Below the pieces are notes generated by a model. It saw only the letters and a list, made by a program, of their open reading frames with translations. It ran no database searches and had not been told where the DNA came from. 64,000 nucleotides of DNA from Burkholderiales bacterium Ga0077544 (lineage in GTDB: Bacteria; Pseudomonadota; Gammaproteobacteria; Burkholderiales; Burkholderiaceae_D). Below, one piece after another: positions 42,018 to 51,375 of this stretch. The stretch covers positions 124,001-188,000 of the forward strand of contig LNEU01000023.1 in assembly GCA_001464355.1 (NCBI GenBank), written 5' to 3'. The position numbers and the translations under genes are program-made. Numbering within the stretch: the first letter of the stretch is position 1; each line of letters opens with the position of its first letter.

Positions 42018-42085
42018 GAATCGGAAAATCACCGATTCTGCAAAGTTTGCACTTCCTGCACAATCGACTCTGTAAAACTTGCACT
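42018..42085. promoter_or_regulatory. Operator-like repeats ahead of the sigma-54 activator gene
   Basis: A 7-bp inverted repeat GAATCGG/CCGATTC (42018-42038) is followed at once by TGCAAAGTTTGCACT (42039-42053), whose first 13 bases are a perfect palindrome. A near copy, TGTAAAACTTGCACT, lies at 42071-42085, exactly 32 bases (three helical turns) on. The elements end 24 bases before the start codon, fitting autoregulation. Confidence 0.55.
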
Positions 42086-42108: not shown

Positions 42109-43248
42109 ATGTCCAACGGATTGAGTAGCGACGGCAACGCTGTCGGGATGCCGGCACTAAATACAGAAGAATTCACAAAAGAATTCGCAGAAAAATTCGC
42201 TGTCATACCCGCCCGTGCACATGGAGCCGACGCATCATATAAAAATGACCATCGTTGTGGCGATCTATACGGCGCATCGGAAAACATGCAGCATCTGTTC
42301 AAAATGATAGGCAAGGTCGCACCGACCAATGCGAATGTGCTGATCATCGGCGAAAGCGGCACCGGCAAAGAACTGGTCGCTAACGTCATCCATCATAAAA
42401 GCAAGGAAGGCAATCAACCGTTCATTGCATTGAATTGCGGTGCGATCTCCCCGCAATTGATAGAAGCAGAATTGTTCGGTTCCGAGCGCGGCAGTTTTAC
42501 TGGTTCCGTGCGTATGCAAAAAGGCTGCTTTGAACGCGCCGACGGCGGCACCCTGTTTCTCGATGAGGTGACAGAAATGTCGCTCGACATGCAAGTCAAA
42601 TTGCTGCGCGTACTCGAAACCAATCGCTTCTATCGGATTGGTGCCGACGAAGAAACCGAAGTCAAGGTACGTGTTGTTGCCGCCACCAATCGCGATCCGC
42701 TGGAAGCCGTCGCGAACGGCACACTGCGCAGCGACCTCTTCTATCGTCTGGCGGTGTTCCCTATCCATGTCCCTACGCTACGTGAACGCGGCGAAGACAT
42801 ACGCTTGCTGGCCAACCTCTTTCTCGCGCAGTTGAACGAAGAAGAAGGCAACAACAAACATTTTTCAAAAGCGTCTTATCGACTTTTGAATGAATACAGC
42901 TGGCCTGGCAATGTACGCGAATTGAAGAATATTGTGCACCGCAGCTATATTCTTGCGGATCAGGAACTAGACATCAAACTTGGCATCAATCCCTTGAGAA
43001 GTCATATCATCGAGCACGCTGAAGATTGCGTCACCGTACAACTAGGCAGCAAGCTGGCAGATGCGGAACAAAGACTGATATGTGCGACATTAGGACATTG
43101 TGGCGGCAATAAAACGCTGACCGCCGAGGTGTTAGGTGTGAGTCTTAAAACCCTTTACAATCGCCTCAATGAATATCAGGCAAAATTGTTTTTACCTGAT
43201 GCCATCAACAACCGCACGCATCACTATGGCATGCAGGCTCGCAACTAG
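42109..43248 (+). CDS. Sigma-54-dependent transcriptional activator without receiver domain
   Basis: The protein has 379 residues from the ATG at 42109 (GAGGAG ahead). About 50 unassigned N-terminal residues precede the AAA+ domain, so it has no receiver, GAF or PAS input. Walker A is GESGTGKE (81-88) and Walker B LFLDEV (about 149-154). The sigma-54 contact loop, normally GAFTGA, reads GSFTGS (128-133). A Fis-type helix-turn-helix closes the protein (NKTLTAEVLGVSLKTLYNRL). It is first of three plus-strand regulatory genes; activity may depend on protein partners such as the neighbouring response regulators. Confidence 0.93.
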   Translation: MSNGLSSDGNAVGMPALNTEEFTKEFAEKFAVIPARAHGADASYKNDHRCGDLYGASENMQHLFKMIGKVAPTNANVLIIGESGTGKELVANVIHHKSKEGNQPFIALNCGAISPQLIEAELFGSERGSFTGSVRMQKGCFERADGGTLFLDEVTEMSLDMQVKLLRVLETNRFYRIGADEETEVKVRVVAATNRDPLEAVANGTLRSDLFYRLAVFPIHVPTLRERGEDIRLLANLFLAQLNEEEGNNKHFSKASYRLLNEYSWPGNVRELKNIVHRSYILADQELDIKLGINPLRSHIIEHAEDCVTVQLGSKLADAEQRLICATLGHCGGNKTLTAEVLGVSLKTLYNRLNEYQAKLFLPDAINNRTHHYGMQARN

Positions 43249-43275: not shown

Positions 43276-43908
43276 ATGGTAAAAATTCTCGTAGTTGACG
43301 ATCATGCGGTAGTCCGCGCCGGCGTGCAGTATTTCATTGCACAGGTGCCGGACATGAGCATCGAAGGTGAGGCAGCGACTGCCCAGGAAGCGATTCGTCT
43401 GGTACGTGCGCAGGATTGGGACATCGTTTTACTCGATATCAATATGCCGGACAAAAGCGGCGTAGAAGTATTAAAGCAAATCAAGCGTGAAAAACCAGAT
43501 CTGCCTGTGCTGATTCTGAGCATGCATCCGGAAAGCCGTTACGCAGTGCAGATTCTGCGCAGCGGCGCCAGCGGCTATGTGCAAAAAGAAGCGCTGGCCG
43601 AAGAACTGGTTACCGCTATACAAACAATTTTGCGCGGCCATAAATACATCAGTCATACGGTGGCAGAACTGTTGACGACAGAAGTCGATGCCAATGCGGA
43701 AAAGCCGCTGCACGAAACCCTGTCGAAACGCGAATATGAAATCTTCTATAAGTTATGTCAGGGTCACGGCGTCACCAAGATCGCCGATGAACTTTGCTTG
43801 AGCGTAAAGACCGTGAGTACTTACCGTGCGCGCGTTTTGCAAAAGATGAATATGGAAAACAACGCCGGCATCATTTATTACGCCATCAAGCAAAATCTGA
43901 TCGATTAA
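43276..43908 (+). CDS. NarL/FixJ-type response regulator
   Basis: The protein has 210 residues: a receiver domain with Asp8-Asp9 acidic pocket and phosphoacceptor Asp54 (LLDINMP), then a LuxR-type helix-turn-helix (LSKREYEIFYKLCQGHGVTKIADELCLSVKTVSTYRARV read in part). The family binds DNA as a phosphorylated dimer. It starts 27 bases after the sigma-54 activator gene. The HisKA_3 kinase encoded 700 bases downstream on the other strand is of the class that normally pairs with NarL-type regulators. Confidence 0.94.
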   Translation: MVKILVVDDHAVVRAGVQYFIAQVPDMSIEGEAATAQEAIRLVRAQDWDIVLLDINMPDKSGVEVLKQIKREKPDLPVLILSMHPESRYAVQILRSGASGYVQKEALAEELVTAIQTILRGHKYISHTVAELLTTEVDANAEKPLHETLSKREYEIFYKLCQGHGVTKIADELCLSVKTVSTYRARVLQKMNMENNAGIIYYAIKQNLID

Positions 43909-44582: not shown

Positions 44583-46598
44583 TCAGTCGTTTGCTTCCAT
44601 CACATGATCATCCGACACTGCCGTGTTCTCCGGCGTTTTTGGAATCGTAATAATAATCGTCGTCCCCTTGCCTTCCGCTCCATTCACCCTGACTGTGCCA
44701 CCTAGATACGCTACCCGTTCGCGCATGCCGCGTAAACCGTGGGTGATTACACCACCGGGATTGGCGGCAGGAATACCGATACCGTTATCACGCACAGTCA
44801 ACACGATTTCATCGTCGACATCATCCAGCACTACGTCAACATGTGTGGCTTTGGCATGCTTGGCGATATTGTTCAAGGCTTCCTGGACGATGCGGAACAG
44901 CGCGATATCCACACGGGGAGCATAGCCCAACTGGTCATCTGGAAGATTAACGTTGCAGACAACGCCGGTATATTTTTCAAATTCTGCAGCCTGTTCCGCA
45001 ATCGCTATCTTGACGCCAAACACATCCAGCTTGTCCGGCCGTAAACCGTTTTGAATACGCCGGGTCGCGTCGGTGATAGAACTGAGTAAAGCCTTGATCT
45101 TGAGCGAACGTTCGGTAAATTTTGGCTCAGGCGGCATCTGCTGGAAGATAAGCGACAGATGCATATTCAGTGCGGTGAGTGCCGCACCCAGGTCATCGTG
45201 TAATTCTCGTGCGATCGAACGCTTCTCTTCTTCACGCGTTGTTTCCAAATGGCCGATCAATTCACTGACTTCAAAAGTGCGTGCAGCGACCAGAGCTTCG
45301 AGCTGGGTTTCATGGGCTTTCAATGCATCTTCAATGCGTTTGCGTTCCGTAATATCGGTACTGATACCAACCAAACCCATCACTTGTCCCTGGTCATCCA
45401 GCCACGGCGCCTTGGTCGAGTGCATGGTACGTACACCGTAGGCATAGCGGGAGGTGGTTTCGAAAGTCATAGGCTTGCCGCTGGAAATCACGCTTCGATC
45501 CTCTGCTATAACGCGCGCTGCATCGACTTTCTCAAGGTACAGTTCTTCACTGCGGAAACCGATCACCTGTTCTCGCTCTTTTCCAAGCAGGCGCAATTTG
45601 GCAGGATTGGCAAAGATCATCCGGCCATTGCGATCTTTGACAAAGATTGCATCCGGCGTGTTATCGCTGACTGCGCGCAACAAGGCATTGCTTTCGGCAA
45701 GTGCTGCTTCACCGATTTGGCGACCTTCGTATTCACGATTCAGAAGCGCTGCGGTACGGCAGAACATGATGAACAAGAGTGTACCGCTCAGCATGATCAG
45801 TAGCGGCGATGCCTTGTCGGCATCATAGAGATTATTCTGCACGCCCCATTTGATCGCAAAATCCAGGATCACCAGCATCAACAGGCTGTTCGGCAACAAG
45901 CGCCGAAGAATCGGACCGCCCGGCGATTTGCTATTCCAGAGACGCATCAGACGATGCGCCGGGCGCGCAGACAATATCCCCAGCCCCAGCACCATGAAGG
46001 TCACCGAGATAAAAGGTACCAACGTACGTGCAGCGTCAGCCACATCCATCGACATCACGTTGTACAACTGACCCACCAGCGGAATGCCCATCATGCCGAT
46101 GAGGATAAAGGCTACATACTCGGATGGGTAATGGCCGTGAGCGGTACGGTAGTCCAGCAATAATAGACAGAAACCCACAAATACGAAGCCCAGCGCCGCA
46201 AGCGGCGAGTCGTACAAGAGGAATTTTTCCTGCGCACCTGTTTTTGCCAACAGGGTTTCAAGGCCGATATCAATACCAAAAAAATAGCGCAGCAGTGCCG
46301 ATGCGCCGACCACTACCACCGCCAGTGCCAAGACAGATGCCACTACCTTCACTGCAGTTCTGAGCATGCCATGTGCAACATGCATGGAGCGAAATGCAAG
46401 TGCCAGCGCTGCCAGAATGAAAACAATGCCGGTCGTTGTCCTTATCGGCACGATATCGGCGAGGCGGTAGTCGAGAATCCAGAAGTCCTGCGCGGCGTTA
46501 TAGATTGCAACGATACCAACCGTCAGAATGAGAGCTGCGGCGATGAGGGGCGCAACCAGAAAAGTAAAGAATTTGCGATGTTCATCTGATTGAAACAT
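44583..46598 (-). CDS. Membrane PAS sensor histidine kinase (HisKA_3/NarX class)
   Basis: The protein has 671 residues from the ATG at 46596-46598, with CGGAG ahead; a longer frame upstream is not protein-like. About eight membrane segments fill residues 10-285, an integral sensing module of MASE-like type. A PAS/PAC domain covers about 300-420 (AVSDNTPDAIFVKDRNGRMI), then a coiled linker. Phosphoacceptor His467 is in ARELHDDLGAAL. The ATPase part has VQEALNNIAKHA, VRDNGIGIP and GLRGMRERV. It is convergent with the two response regulator genes, which are its likely partners. Confidence 0.94.
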   Translation of the reverse strand: MFQSDEHRKFFTFLVAPLIAAALILTVGIVAIYNAAQDFWILDYRLADIVPIRTTTGIVFILAALALAFRSMHVAHGMLRTAVKVVASVLALAVVVVGASALLRYFFGIDIGLETLLAKTGAQEKFLLYDSPLAALGFVFVGFCLLLLDYRTAHGHYPSEYVAFILIGMMGIPLVGQLYNVMSMDVADAARTLVPFISVTFMVLGLGILSARPAHRLMRLWNSKSPGGPILRRLLPNSLLMLVILDFAIKWGVQNNLYDADKASPLLIMLSGTLLFIMFCRTAALLNREYEGRQIGEAALAESNALLRAVSDNTPDAIFVKDRNGRMIFANPAKLRLLGKEREQVIGFRSEELYLEKVDAARVIAEDRSVISSGKPMTFETTSRYAYGVRTMHSTKAPWLDDQGQVMGLVGISTDITERKRIEDALKAHETQLEALVAARTFEVSELIGHLETTREEEKRSIARELHDDLGAALTALNMHLSLIFQQMPPEPKFTERSLKIKALLSSITDATRRIQNGLRPDKLDVFGVKIAIAEQAAEFEKYTGVVCNVNLPDDQLGYAPRVDIALFRIVQEALNNIAKHAKATHVDVVLDDVDDEIVLTVRDNGIGIPAANPGGVITHGLRGMRERVAYLGGTVRVNGAEGKGTTIIITIPKTPENTAVSDDHVMEAND

Positions 46599-46907
46599 GA
46601 GTTTGCTCCGCTGCAAATTGGGAAACAGGACAACACTACTTCGCCTTCCTGCTCCGAATAACACATGCCTGACTCTATTGATACGGTCCTGGCGACGTTT
46701 TACGATGGTTCTTAGGGAGAGTTGCAGATCTTGAAGGACCGCATGTACTGCAAGATGCACAGTGTTCAGAGCGCATGAATAAGATAGTTTGCCCTGCAAT
46801 ATTGTTGCGTGTGCGAAGTAGCATAGCAGTATCCTGCGCGCCTGCAAACGCTTGGTCAGATATTAATCCAGCGGAATAGTTCCTGCGCGCATCGAGATGG
46901 CAATGAA

Positions 46908-48350: not shown

Positions 48351-48564
48351 AATTTTTCGCCGCCTGCTTTAGCGACTCACTATTTTTCTTTCCGCTTTGC
48401 CGCTCCGCTCGCCTTCCATTCACTTTGCTTTTCGTGATCTTGCTTCTTGTTGTCCTGCAAGGGCTTCCGCGTTTCCCACATGTAGGCTTTGCAACTTACC
48501 CTGCGCTATTTACATATAGTTAACAACATTTTTCTTAAGTGATTGATTTTTATAAGTAAAAAAT

Positions 48565-48582
48565 CTGGCCCATGTTTTGCAT
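48565..48582 (+). promoter_or_regulatory. Candidate sigma-54 (-24/-12) promoter of the csbD-like gene
   Basis: CTGGCCCATGTTTTGCAT holds the required GG (48567-48568) and GC (48579-48580) dinucleotides exactly 10 bases apart, with TGGC and TTGCA cores of the consensus TGGCAC-N5-TTGCA. Transcription would begin near 48592, about 45 bases before the CsbD start codon. A sigma-54 activator gene lies 5 kb upstream in the same block. Confidence 0.65.
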
Positions 48583-48637
48583 AGTAAGGGACAGGCACTG
48601 TCGCCATAGCGTATGAAATTCACTTAAGGAGAATGTT

Positions 48638-48856
48638 ATGAATTGGGACGTTATCGAAGGTAACTGGAAACAACTCAAAGGCAATGTCAAAGAACAATGG
48701 GGCAAGCTTACTGATGACAGCCTTGATCAAATCGCAGGCAAACGCGATCAACTCGCTGGCAAGATTCAAGAAGCTTACGGCGTGAACAAGGATGAAGCTG
48801 AAAAGCAGATCAAAGCGTTTGAAGAACGTAATCGCGAAGACAAACGTTTCATGTAA
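48638..48856 (+). CDS. CsbD-family stress protein
   Basis: A 72-residue hydrophilic helical protein from the ATG at 48638, preceded by TAAGGAG. It carries the family core MNWDVIEGNWKQLKGNVKEQ, then WGKLTDDSLDQIAGKRDQL and GKIQEAYG. CsbD-like proteins (YjbJ in E. coli) are abundant under general stress or in stationary phase; their molecular role is unknown. Sequence ahead of the gene carries a good sigma-54 promoter match. The next gene, 91 bases on, may be transcribed with it past an interposed hairpin. Confidence 0.94.
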   Translation: MNWDVIEGNWKQLKGNVKEQWGKLTDDSLDQIAGKRDQLAGKIQEAYGVNKDEAEKQIKAFEERNREDKRFM

Positions 48857-48866
48857 GACCGTGTGT

Positions 48867-48903
48867 GGTGCGGACCCGTCGTCAGACGACGACGCTCCGC
48901 ACC
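48867..48903 (+). terminator. Hairpin between csbD-like and Cx10C-repeat genes
   Basis: Arms GGTGCGGA/TCCGCACC with an inner CGTCGTC/ACGACG pair make a strong structure, but no T run follows. It may be a partial terminator or an mRNA-stabilising element that raises CsbD yield over the downstream gene. Confidence 0.5.
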
Positions 48904-48947
48904 TGATTGCCTGACGCAATTTCAATTAAAAAACCAAAAGGAACTTC

Positions 48948-49481
48948 ATGAAAAAAGCAATCTCAATGATCATCATGGCCAGCGCCAGCTTTGGCTTTAT
49001 CGCTGCATCGCACGCAGCACCAAATGAAGCAAAAGTGACTTACGATGCAAGCAAGAAAAAAGCAGATGCTGACTACAAAATGGCAAAAGAAGCCTGTGAC
49101 AGCCACAAAGGTAATGCCAAGGATGTTTGCGTAAAAGAAGCGAAAGCTGCTCAGGTGAAAGCCACAGCAGAAGCCGAAGTTGCATACAAAGGCACTGACG
49201 CGGCACGTAAAAAAGCGCGCACCGACATTGCTGATGCAAACTATGAAGTCGCAAAAGAAAAATGCGATGACATGACCGGCAACAATAAAGATGTCTGCGT
49301 GAAAGAAGCAAAAGCGGTAAAAACTGCAGCAGTTGCCGATGCGAAAGCTGGCAAAGAAGTTTCCGACGCACGCAAGGATGCACGTGAAGAAAAGCACGAT
49401 GCCAACGTTGCCGTGCAAAAGGAAAAATGTGACGCTTTGAGCGGCGCTGAAAAATCGCGTTGCATGGGCGCTGCAAAATAA
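48948..49481 (+). CDS. Exported Ala/Lys-rich protein with three Cx10C repeats
   Basis: A 177-residue protein with a signal peptide ending about SHA-APN. The mature part is highly charged and helical. Three repeats each place two Cys ten residues apart: CDSHKGNAKDVC, CDDMTGNNKDVC and CDALSGAEKSRC; the first two are followed by VKEAKA. Similar low-complexity exported proteins are common in betaproteobacteria and have no assigned function. Each repeat could close as a helical hairpin by a disulfide in the periplasm. AAGGA precedes the ATG. It lies in the stress block behind the CsbD gene. Confidence 0.85.
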   Translation: MKKAISMIIMASASFGFIAASHAAPNEAKVTYDASKKKADADYKMAKEACDSHKGNAKDVCVKEAKAAQVKATAEAEVAYKGTDAARKKARTDIADANYEVAKEKCDDMTGNNKDVCVKEAKAVKTAAVADAKAGKEVSDARKDAREEKHDANVAVQKEKCDALSGAEKSRCMGAAK

Positions 49482-49555
49482 ACAGGCGACTCACTAGCTA
49501 ATCCATGTCTACAGCAGGTCATCACACACGACCTGCAGACTGATTAGCCAGAAAC

Positions 49556-49596
49556 AAGGCGATCTCGCTAACCTGGTTAGCCAGATCGCCTTTTTA
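49556..49596 (+). terminator. Terminator after the Cx10C-repeat gene
   Basis: Stem AAGGCGATCT/AGATCGCCTT with an inner CTAAC/GGTTAG pairing and a T run (TTTTTA). A smaller hairpin, GCAGGTC/GACCTGC (49514-49536), precedes it. Confidence 0.88.
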
Positions 49597-49676
49597 TTTC
49601 CGGTCTTGCAAACTATTAAAATTCCGCATCAGCATAAATGTCTGCTGCGAAGCAAGCCGGCAATGGCGGATAACAC

Positions 49677-49955
49677 ATGAATTTAATCATCTGGATAACG
49701 GTAGGCGGCCTGAGCGGCGCACTGTCATTCGTCATCCTGCGACTATTAAAACGTAGCGATCAAGGCGAACTATTGCTCAATATCGTTGTGGGGATGGCAG
49801 GAGCGCTACTGGGAGGAATTCTGCTGGCACCGGTCTTTGGAACCGGAGCGATAGATTCGCAGCACTACACAAATGGCAAGCTGATCGCAGCATGGGCTGG
49901 TGCCCTGTTTTTGCTGAGCATCGTCAATCTATTCGGCCAGCTCAATAAACGTTAA
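49677..49955 (+). CDS. GlsB/YeaQ/YmgE-family membrane protein
   Basis: A 92-residue protein with three hydrophobic segments and the family's glycine-rich pattern (WITVGGLSGALSFVILRLLK, then NIVVGMAGALLGGILLAPVFG). The label 'transglycosylase-associated' is historical and unproven. Relatives are induced in general or envelope stress, in keeping with the neighbouring CsbD-like gene. Convergent with fumC, whose stop codon is 31 bases away. Confidence 0.88.
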   Translation: MNLIIWITVGGLSGALSFVILRLLKRSDQGELLLNIVVGMAGALLGGILLAPVFGTGAIDSQHYTNGKLIAAWAGALFLLSIVNLFGQLNKR

Positions 49956-49986
49956 TGCTGGATCGGTAAAGCCCATGCATGGCTGG

Positions 49987-51375
49987 TCAATTTGGATGAA
50001 TCATGTCTTGCGGCTGCACCCAAAGATCGAATTCATCGCTGGTCACAAATCCCAGAGCCAGCGCGGTCTCCTTTAATGTGCTGCCATCATGATGTGCCTG
50101 CTTGGCTATCTTCGCTGCCTTGTCGTAGCCGATATGCGGCGCCAATGCCGTCACCAGCATCAATGAACGTCCCATCAATTCATCAATACGCTCGCGATTG
50201 GCGGCGATGCCGTGTGCACAGTGCTCATCGAAACTCTGTATGCCATCCGCCAGCAAACGCACGCTTTGCAAAAAATTATGCGCAAGCAGCGGCTTGAAGA
50301 CATTCAATTCAAAGTTGCCGGATGCGCCGCCAAAATTAATCGCCACATCGTTGCCAAATACCTGGCAACACAACATGGTGACCGCTTCGCTCTGCGTCGG
50401 ATTGACCTTGCCCGGCATGATGGAACTACCCGGTTCGTTTTCCGGAATACTTAATTCACCCAAACCGGAACGCGGACCGGATGCCAGCCAGCGCACATCG
50501 TTTGCAATCTTCATCATCGCAGCGGCGAGCGTCTTCAAGCCGCCATGTACGCTCACCAGCGCATCGTGCGCTGCCAGCGCGGCAAACTTATTACTTGCAC
50601 TTTTAAACGGCAGGCCCGTACGCTGCGCCAACTCAGCCGCCACACGGACACCGAATTCCGGATGCGTATTCAATCCTGTGCCAACTGCCGTGCCACCAAC
50701 GGCAAGTTCATGCAATGCGGGCTGCAAAGCCGCAATCGCAGCAGCAGCATACTCAAGTTGCGCAACATAGCCAGAGAATTCCTGTCCCAGCGTCAGTGGT
50801 GTTGCGTCCTGCAAATGCGTGCGGCCTATCTTGACAATGTCAGCAAATTCTTCCGATTTCAGTTGCAGCGTCTGCCGCAATTTGTCGATCTGCGGCAATA
50901 TTTTCTTGCTGACGCCAAGCGCTGCAGCCACATACATCGCCGACGGGAAGATGTCGTTGGAAGACTGCCCGAGATTAACGTCGTCGTTCGGATGAATCAG
51001 GCGCTGCTCGCCACGCTCGCCGTTCAGCAATTCAGATGCGCGATTGGCCAGCACTTCATTCATATTCATATTGCTCTGCGTGCCGGAACCGGTCTGCCAC
51101 ACGGCAAGTGGAAACTCATGTGGATGCAGACCCGCAATCACTTCTTCTGCCGCCGCGACTATCGCGCCAGACTTTTTTCGGTCGAGCTTGCCCAGATCAA
51201 GATTGACTATGGCCGATGCACGTTTGACTTCAGCGAGCGCGATGATCAGTTCCTGCGGCATCCGTTCGGTCGATATCTTGAAATGTTCAAGCGAGCGCTG
51301 TGTTTGCGCGCCCCACAAACGTTCAGCATTGACCTCGATCAAGCCGAATGTATCGCGCTCCATTCTGGTTTTCAT
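49987..51375 (-). CDS. fumC: Fumarate hydratase, class II
   Basis: Converts fumarate and malate in the citric acid cycle; oxygen-stable, iron-free homotetramer. It has 462 residues from the ATG at 51373-51375, with AAGGA seven bases ahead; upstream ATGs lack this. The superfamily signature [12 protein letters not shown] (about residues 316-327), the B-site region and [15 protein letters not shown] with the catalytic-region His are intact. Monocistronic. The 370 bases upstream must hold its promoter. Confidence 0.97.

Follow-up and report, generated by a model that had tools for sequence, protein, structure and literature searches.

The usual layout of a sigma-54-dependent promoter is an enhancer followed by an IHF site and then by the -24/-12 element. 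The phage-shock system combines PspF, a sigma-54 activator (EBP) without a receiver domain, with sigma-54, IHF and envelope stress. The aoxAB genes of Herminiimonas arsenicoxydans are described in PMC2848651 as RpoN-dependent, with a start mapped by 5'RACE and a published rpoN mutant, and because this dependence is published with a mapped start the genus can be said to use the sigma-54 promoter type. CsbD is a widespread stress-protein family with a function described as unclear in PMC8066629.

The locus described here is from the same genus as H. arsenicoxydans and lies in a stretch of 64,000 nucleotides, termed the window. The csbD gene in the window is preceded by a -24/-12 element, and the best reading of the sequence is that RpoN and a neighbouring EBP activate csbD and the following gene, ORF177, perhaps as the only target of that EBP.

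The promoter element upstream of csbD

The -24/-12 sigma-54 promoter element TGGCCCATGTTTTGCA occupies positions 48566 to 48581 of the plus strand with the GG at 48567-48568, ten bases following and the GC at 48579-48580, in agreement with the exact GG-N10-GC spacing claimed in an earlier note on this DNA. The distance from the C of the GC to the A of the csbD ATG (48638) is 58 nt with AAGGAG present at 48626-48631, and the PF05532 match of the downstream gene confirms that the site is directly 5' of a CsbD gene. Compared with the consensus YTGGCACGNNNNTTGCWNNw, as quoted in PMC2848651, TGGCCCATGTTTTGCA has two mismatches, both within the -24 half (A to C and G to A), and the claim that both cores match the consensus is correct for TGGC and TTGC and does not extend to the full -24 element. 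The GG-N10-GC spacing with TGGC and TTGC cores is that of a sigma-54-dependent promoter, and RpoN is encoded in the genome of the window (TIGR02395, 470.2 bits compared with a cut-off of 277.35).

The lone site is not significant because the pattern at up to two mismatches gives 22 matches within the 64-kb window compared with 19.5 expected from shuffles. A stricter pattern gives 17 matches in the whole genome compared with nine for the reversed control pattern. The score of the window site is reached by 0.26% of 3439 random 250-nt stretches taken from nine loci of the genus and the score of the weakest ortholog (11.4) by 3.3% of them, calculated with a matrix of approximate weights.

Searching the 13 genomes of the genus for CsbD gave 21 matches comprising 14 close orthologs and seven weaker paralogs. 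A -24/-12 site is present in the 250 nt 5' of csbD in all 14 orthologs with scores from 11.4 to 17.0, and the TGGC-N7-TTGC core is placed 51-68 nt before the ATG in each of them, whereas none of the seven paralogs carries the element (top score 5.9). TGGC and TTGC are invariant in the 14 orthologs, and all four columns of the spacer vary. Conservation in 14/14 is well above the rates in random stretches, although the genomes are related and the orthologs do not amount to 14 independent trials. Loss of the GG/GC pair in relatives had been named beforehand as the result that would count against the site, and the pair is kept by every one of the 14 orthologs.

The enhancer, the IHF-consensus site and the leader

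A 34-bp dyad enhancer (upstream activator sequence) of the form TGTAGGCTTTGCAA-N8-..ATTTACA is located at 48481-48514 on the plus strand and has a counterpart in 14/14 orthologs, where it ends 49-51 nt upstream of the -24 element. The form TGTA...TTTACA is retained with 0-2 mismatches to the searched form across the 14 orthologs. The dyad is imperfect: symmetry holds at 18 of the 34 consensus positions within the genus and, outside the genus, at 20 of 34. Between the enhancer and the promoter, the sequence YAANNNNYTGATW on the minus strand at 48536-48548, which reads TAAGTGATTGATT on the plus strand, matches the IHF consensus and is taken to be an IHF site; the consensus is found 16-17 nt 5' of the -24 element in 13/14 orthologs. 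As sequence elements, an upstream enhancer and an intervening IHF site are thus both present.

Downstream of the promoter, the predicted transcript start region coincides with a leader block, CAGGCACTGTCGCC, at 48592-48605 on the plus strand, which is conserved in 14/14 orthologs. The block is marked by CAGGCA starting 12-13 nt 3' of the -12 GC in all 14, which is the expected +1 position. A GGCA/TGCC hairpin can be drawn in eight of the 14 leaders, and the remaining six, including the window, have merely GGC/GCC; as the full hairpin is confined to these eight, a structural role for the block is a guess.

A one-half pattern of the enhancer occurs at 14 places in 12 of the 13 genomes, 13 of these being at csbD and one elsewhere (G012), and the enhancer in G010 is missed by this pattern and visible in the alignment alone. 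The bipartite pattern at up to three mismatches matches the genome of the window at one place, the csbD enhancer, with the reversed control pattern also giving one match. From these searches the enhancer seems to be present at about one place in this genome, with weaker sites possible.

The probable csbD-ORF177 transcript

The csbD gene (48638-48856, plus strand) encodes a protein of 72 amino acids belonging to the CsbD family (PF05532, 77.5 bits compared with a cut-off of 40), which scores 98.2 bits against NF007748, under the cut-off of 113 for that model. It is the one CsbD copy in the genome. The probable second gene of the transcript, ORF177 (48948-49481, plus strand), is 3' of csbD in 9/9 genus loci and has no match in Pfam or NCBIfam. 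The ORF177 product resembles a signal peptide at its start and contains repeats that are rich in alanine and lysine and have paired cysteines, and the gene is next after csbD in many betaproteobacterial loci.

The gap between csbD and ORF177 is 91 nt and has no promoter- or terminator-like site, and for this reason the two genes are probably co-transcribed. A strong hairpin, GTGCGGA...TCCGCAC, is formed within the gap at 48868-48902 and is not followed by a T-run; it may influence mRNA stability or dosage. The prediction of one transcript is made notwithstanding this hairpin. A scan over 48351-49990 that leaves ECF promoters aside yielded no sigma-70-like site.

The neighbouring activator gene and regulators

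The earlier note had placed a sigma-54 activator gene 5 kb away, and this is verified by the domains of the EBP encoded at 42109-43248 on the plus strand, with 5.4 kb between its end and csbD. The protein is composed of an AAA+ domain (PF00158, 228.6 bits) and a Fis-type HTH (HTH_8, PF02954, 44.2 bits), which together identify it as an EBP, and the Pfam search detects no receiver domain. The start codon was chosen by us, and translation could instead begin further upstream, at a TTG at position 42079. The GAFTGA loop, which contacts sigma-54, is GSFTGS in the subclade of the window and GSFTGA in most orthologs, and an EBP with the GSFTGS loop may be expected to function.

EBP orthologs 73-100% identical are found in 13/13 genomes of the genus. 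In all 14 pairs from these genomes the EBP is 5' of csbD on the same strand at a distance of 3.7-5.4 kb, making it the probable activator. Two pairs are present in the metagenome-assembled genome G009, which has 3% contamination, and these may be from two strains. The order EBP, LuxR regulator, kinase, csbD and ORF177 is kept in nine genus loci. The link between activator and csbD, previously an inference from position, has gained support from this synteny (13/13) and from the same cassette being found beside EBP orthologs in other genera.

The nitrogen-type control suggested earlier found no support. The EBP has no receiver domain and scores 293.5 bits compared with the NtrC cut-off of 558.6, and the enhancer is unlike an NtrC site; NtrC identity and the nitrogen reading were rejected. 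Because the EBP has no receiver domain, control is probably exerted by a partner or by the level of the EBP itself. A LuxR-type response regulator (43276-43908, plus strand; Pfam) adjoins the EBP and is a candidate input to the circuit, with an identity of 91-98% across nine genus loci compared with 70-87% for the EBP. A PAS histidine kinase (44583-46847, minus strand; Pfam), present in 9/9 genus loci, is a possible sensor.

The cassette in other genera

The family survey covered 294 genomes, of which 63 have an EBP match at E ≤1e-85 and 28 a strong match of at least 439 bits. The bipartite enhancer pattern at up to three mismatches occurs at 40 places in 39 of the 294 genomes, with 29 of the 63 EBP genomes carrying it compared with 10 of the 231 others (Fisher p 1e-14, uncorrected for relatedness). 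Eight of these ten are g6 genomes, in which the palindrome is a different one, and the other two are G085 and G269. Among the strong-EBP genomes the pattern is found in 19 of 28. No match at this threshold is obtained in 34 of the 63 EBP genomes and nine of the 28 strong ones. Three of these nine are members of the genus, the genome of the window included, with a drifted enhancer that is seen in the alignment, and in G040 the contig ends 1.1 kb past the EBP; the pattern at up to three mismatches is truly missing from G039, G048, G089, G105 and G118, which belong to two other genera. A search of 369 genomes of the class at up to two mismatches gave no enhancer match, in a set with few members of the same order and with a pattern that the genome of the window also fails.

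Among the EBP neighbourhoods taken from other genera, seven of 15 contain the enhancer-promoter cassette, and in five of the seven it comes straight after the EBP. It precedes a glsB-like gene in L167, L169, L171 and L180, and in L170 and L173 the first gene of the cassette is an ORF177 homolog. Locus L168 has the EBP, LuxR, kinase, brkB, cassette and glsB in the same order as the window, with a DUF2188-like first gene replacing csbD. Twenty-two of 30 enhancer loci were read (seven g6 duplicates and L250 were omitted), and a good -24/-12 element is found 42-54 nt 3' of the enhancer in 18 of them, the loci without one being L222, L225, L235 and L238. Six of the 18 precede csbD, five from g21 and one from the genus of the window. 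The DUF2188 match of L237 is above the Pfam cut-off, that of L224 is just below it, and L233 has no match and is similar by eye; the likeness of L223 to ORF177 is likewise judged by eye. The EBP recognition helix is nearly identical among the genomes that share the enhancer.

In g21 the enhancer is found 5' of csbD, yet the EBP is just 55-58% identical and distant. The cassette is kept ahead of a degenerate frame in the g21 genomes G167 and G115. In G194 and G212 the enhancer remains, with no site at the right spacing and a csbD-like start further on. At the four g21 loci L235, L238, L239 and L240 the enhancer is retained, with a -24/-12 element in two, and csbD after it looks decayed, a reading of short similarities.

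The g6 loci L225-L232 have a conserved palindrome, TGTAATTGTTTCA...TGAAACAGTTACA, which at L225 has no sigma-54 site and is followed by a gene resembling an efflux periplasmic adaptor. The matches in the eight g6 genomes were rejected as the same enhancer, the palindrome being different and the one locus read, L225, having no sigma-54 element.

Outside the genus, 58 csbD matches were obtained and 40 were examined after thinning one large genus, with the start placeable in 38. Eight of the 38 score at least 11.4, and six of these eight are from g21, representing six of the seven g21 genes. In a set of 71 other csbD loci four reach this score. An EBP is visible at one of the 71, L051, where the csbD -24/-12 score is 14.8, and three of the 70 loci with no visible EBP (L040, L056 and L063) have a good element; flank lengths differ among the 71, and absence of the EBP refers to the flanks seen. 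Seven csbD loci from Herbaspirillum, Collimonas and Glaciimonas have the LuxR regulator and the kinase, no EBP is seen in them, and their -24/-12 scores are at most 5.5.

Model of activation and alternatives

In the proposed circuit RpoN polymerase would bind 48566-48581 as a closed complex and the EBP would bind the dyad enhancer at 48481-48514, and IHF would bend the DNA at 48536-48548. ATP hydrolysis by the EBP would open the complex, and transcription would begin near 48592 and continue through csbD and then ORF177. A stress or envelope signal may arrive by way of the neighbouring kinase and regulators, and the EBP would serve essentially one enhancer in the genome. It is highly probable, judging from the conserved layout, that 48566-48581 is a working sigma-54 promoter of csbD within this model as a whole, including the EBP, IHF and the csbD-ORF177 transcript. 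Points that speak against the model are the two mismatches of the element to the consensus, the GSFTGS loop of the EBP, the missing enhancer match in 34 of the 63 EBP genomes and the g21 csbD enhancers with a distant, less similar EBP.

The alternatives address different parts of the model. A chance resemblance of the -24/-12 site would be in keeping with the near-expected number of comparable matches in the window, but conservation in 14/14 orthologs at a similar distance to the ATG, with the enhancer (14/14) and the IHF consensus (13/14) in fixed register, rules against it and leaves it barely credible. Transcription of csbD could come mainly from a sigma-S, ECF or sigma-70 promoter with the sigma-54 element being a minor or conditional second promoter, as would fit the sigma-B dependence of csbD in Listeria and Bacillus (described in PMC8066629, PMC5491136 and PMC9912610) and the entry of E. 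coli yjbJ in the sigma-S regulon (PMC2731931). However, the scan that excludes ECF promoters has no sigma-70-like site in this region and the sigma-54 layout explains the conserved blocks, and this arrangement is considered unlikely.

The sigma-54 promoter and enhancer could also be real and be served by another EBP, with the neighbouring one linked by position alone. The five strong-EBP genomes of two other genera without the enhancer pattern and the g21 enhancer without a close EBP ortholog nearby would fit such an arrangement, whereas the synteny in 13/13 genomes, the five loci in other genera where the EBP is immediately followed by the cassette and the nearly unchanged recognition helix wherever the enhancer is shared argue for the neighbouring protein; activation by a different EBP is quite improbable. 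Activation by RpoN and the neighbouring EBP remains the preferred reading, and its wider form is favoured on balance. In this form it would be an undescribed sigma-54 circuit of the family, in which one receiver-less EBP acts on one dyad enhancer combined with an IHF site and a single -24/-12 promoter; their spacing is nearly fixed, and the set occurs about once in each genome. The cassette would have been placed in evolution before various small genes of stress or envelope type (csbD, ORF177-like, glsB-like and DUF2188-like), sometimes outliving a decayed csbD, and the EBP would be a single-target regulator with an exchangeable output.

A dedicated activator with one enhancer would provide a handle on CsbD, as the signal of the activator would reveal what CsbD responds to. 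Through the common enhancer, csbD, ORF177 and the GlsB-like and DUF2188-like proteins would form one group of outputs that can replace one another, and the circuit would add a stress-gene branch to sigma-54.

Comparison with known systems

No report of sigma-54 control of csbD or yjbJ was found in the open-access literature, including PMC13101641 and PMC10782981, with subscription papers mostly outside this search, and none was found there for Herminiimonas csbD; csbD and yjbJ are absent from PMC12316311. The EBP is in the same broad AAA+ class as the sigma-54 activator PrsR (TIGR02915, PEP-CTERM response regulator), and PrsR identity was rejected on a score of 293.2 bits compared with a cut-off of 502.6 and on the missing receiver domain. 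The phage-shock system with PspF shares with the proposed circuit an EBP without a receiver domain, sigma-54, IHF and envelope stress. The EBP of the window differs in scoring 275.1 bits compared with the PspF cut-off of 443.55, and no psp genes are present among the proteins examined.

The CsbD proteins of Bacillus and Listeria and YjbJ of E. coli are of the same protein family as the CsbD of the window, and their control differs, with sigma-B for Bacillus and Listeria csbD and the sigma-S regulon for E. coli yjbJ compared with the sigma-54 predicted here. The aoxAB system is similar in genus, in its -24/-12 motif TGGCACGCAGTTTGC, in the involvement of an EBP (AoxR) and in the need for rpoN (PMC2848651). 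It has an arsenite-induced metabolic target and an EBP belonging to a two-component system, whereas csbD is a stress gene with a receiver-less EBP as its predicted activator. Compared with these systems the csbD circuit seems to be of an ordinary sigma-54 type with an unusual target and a single target site.
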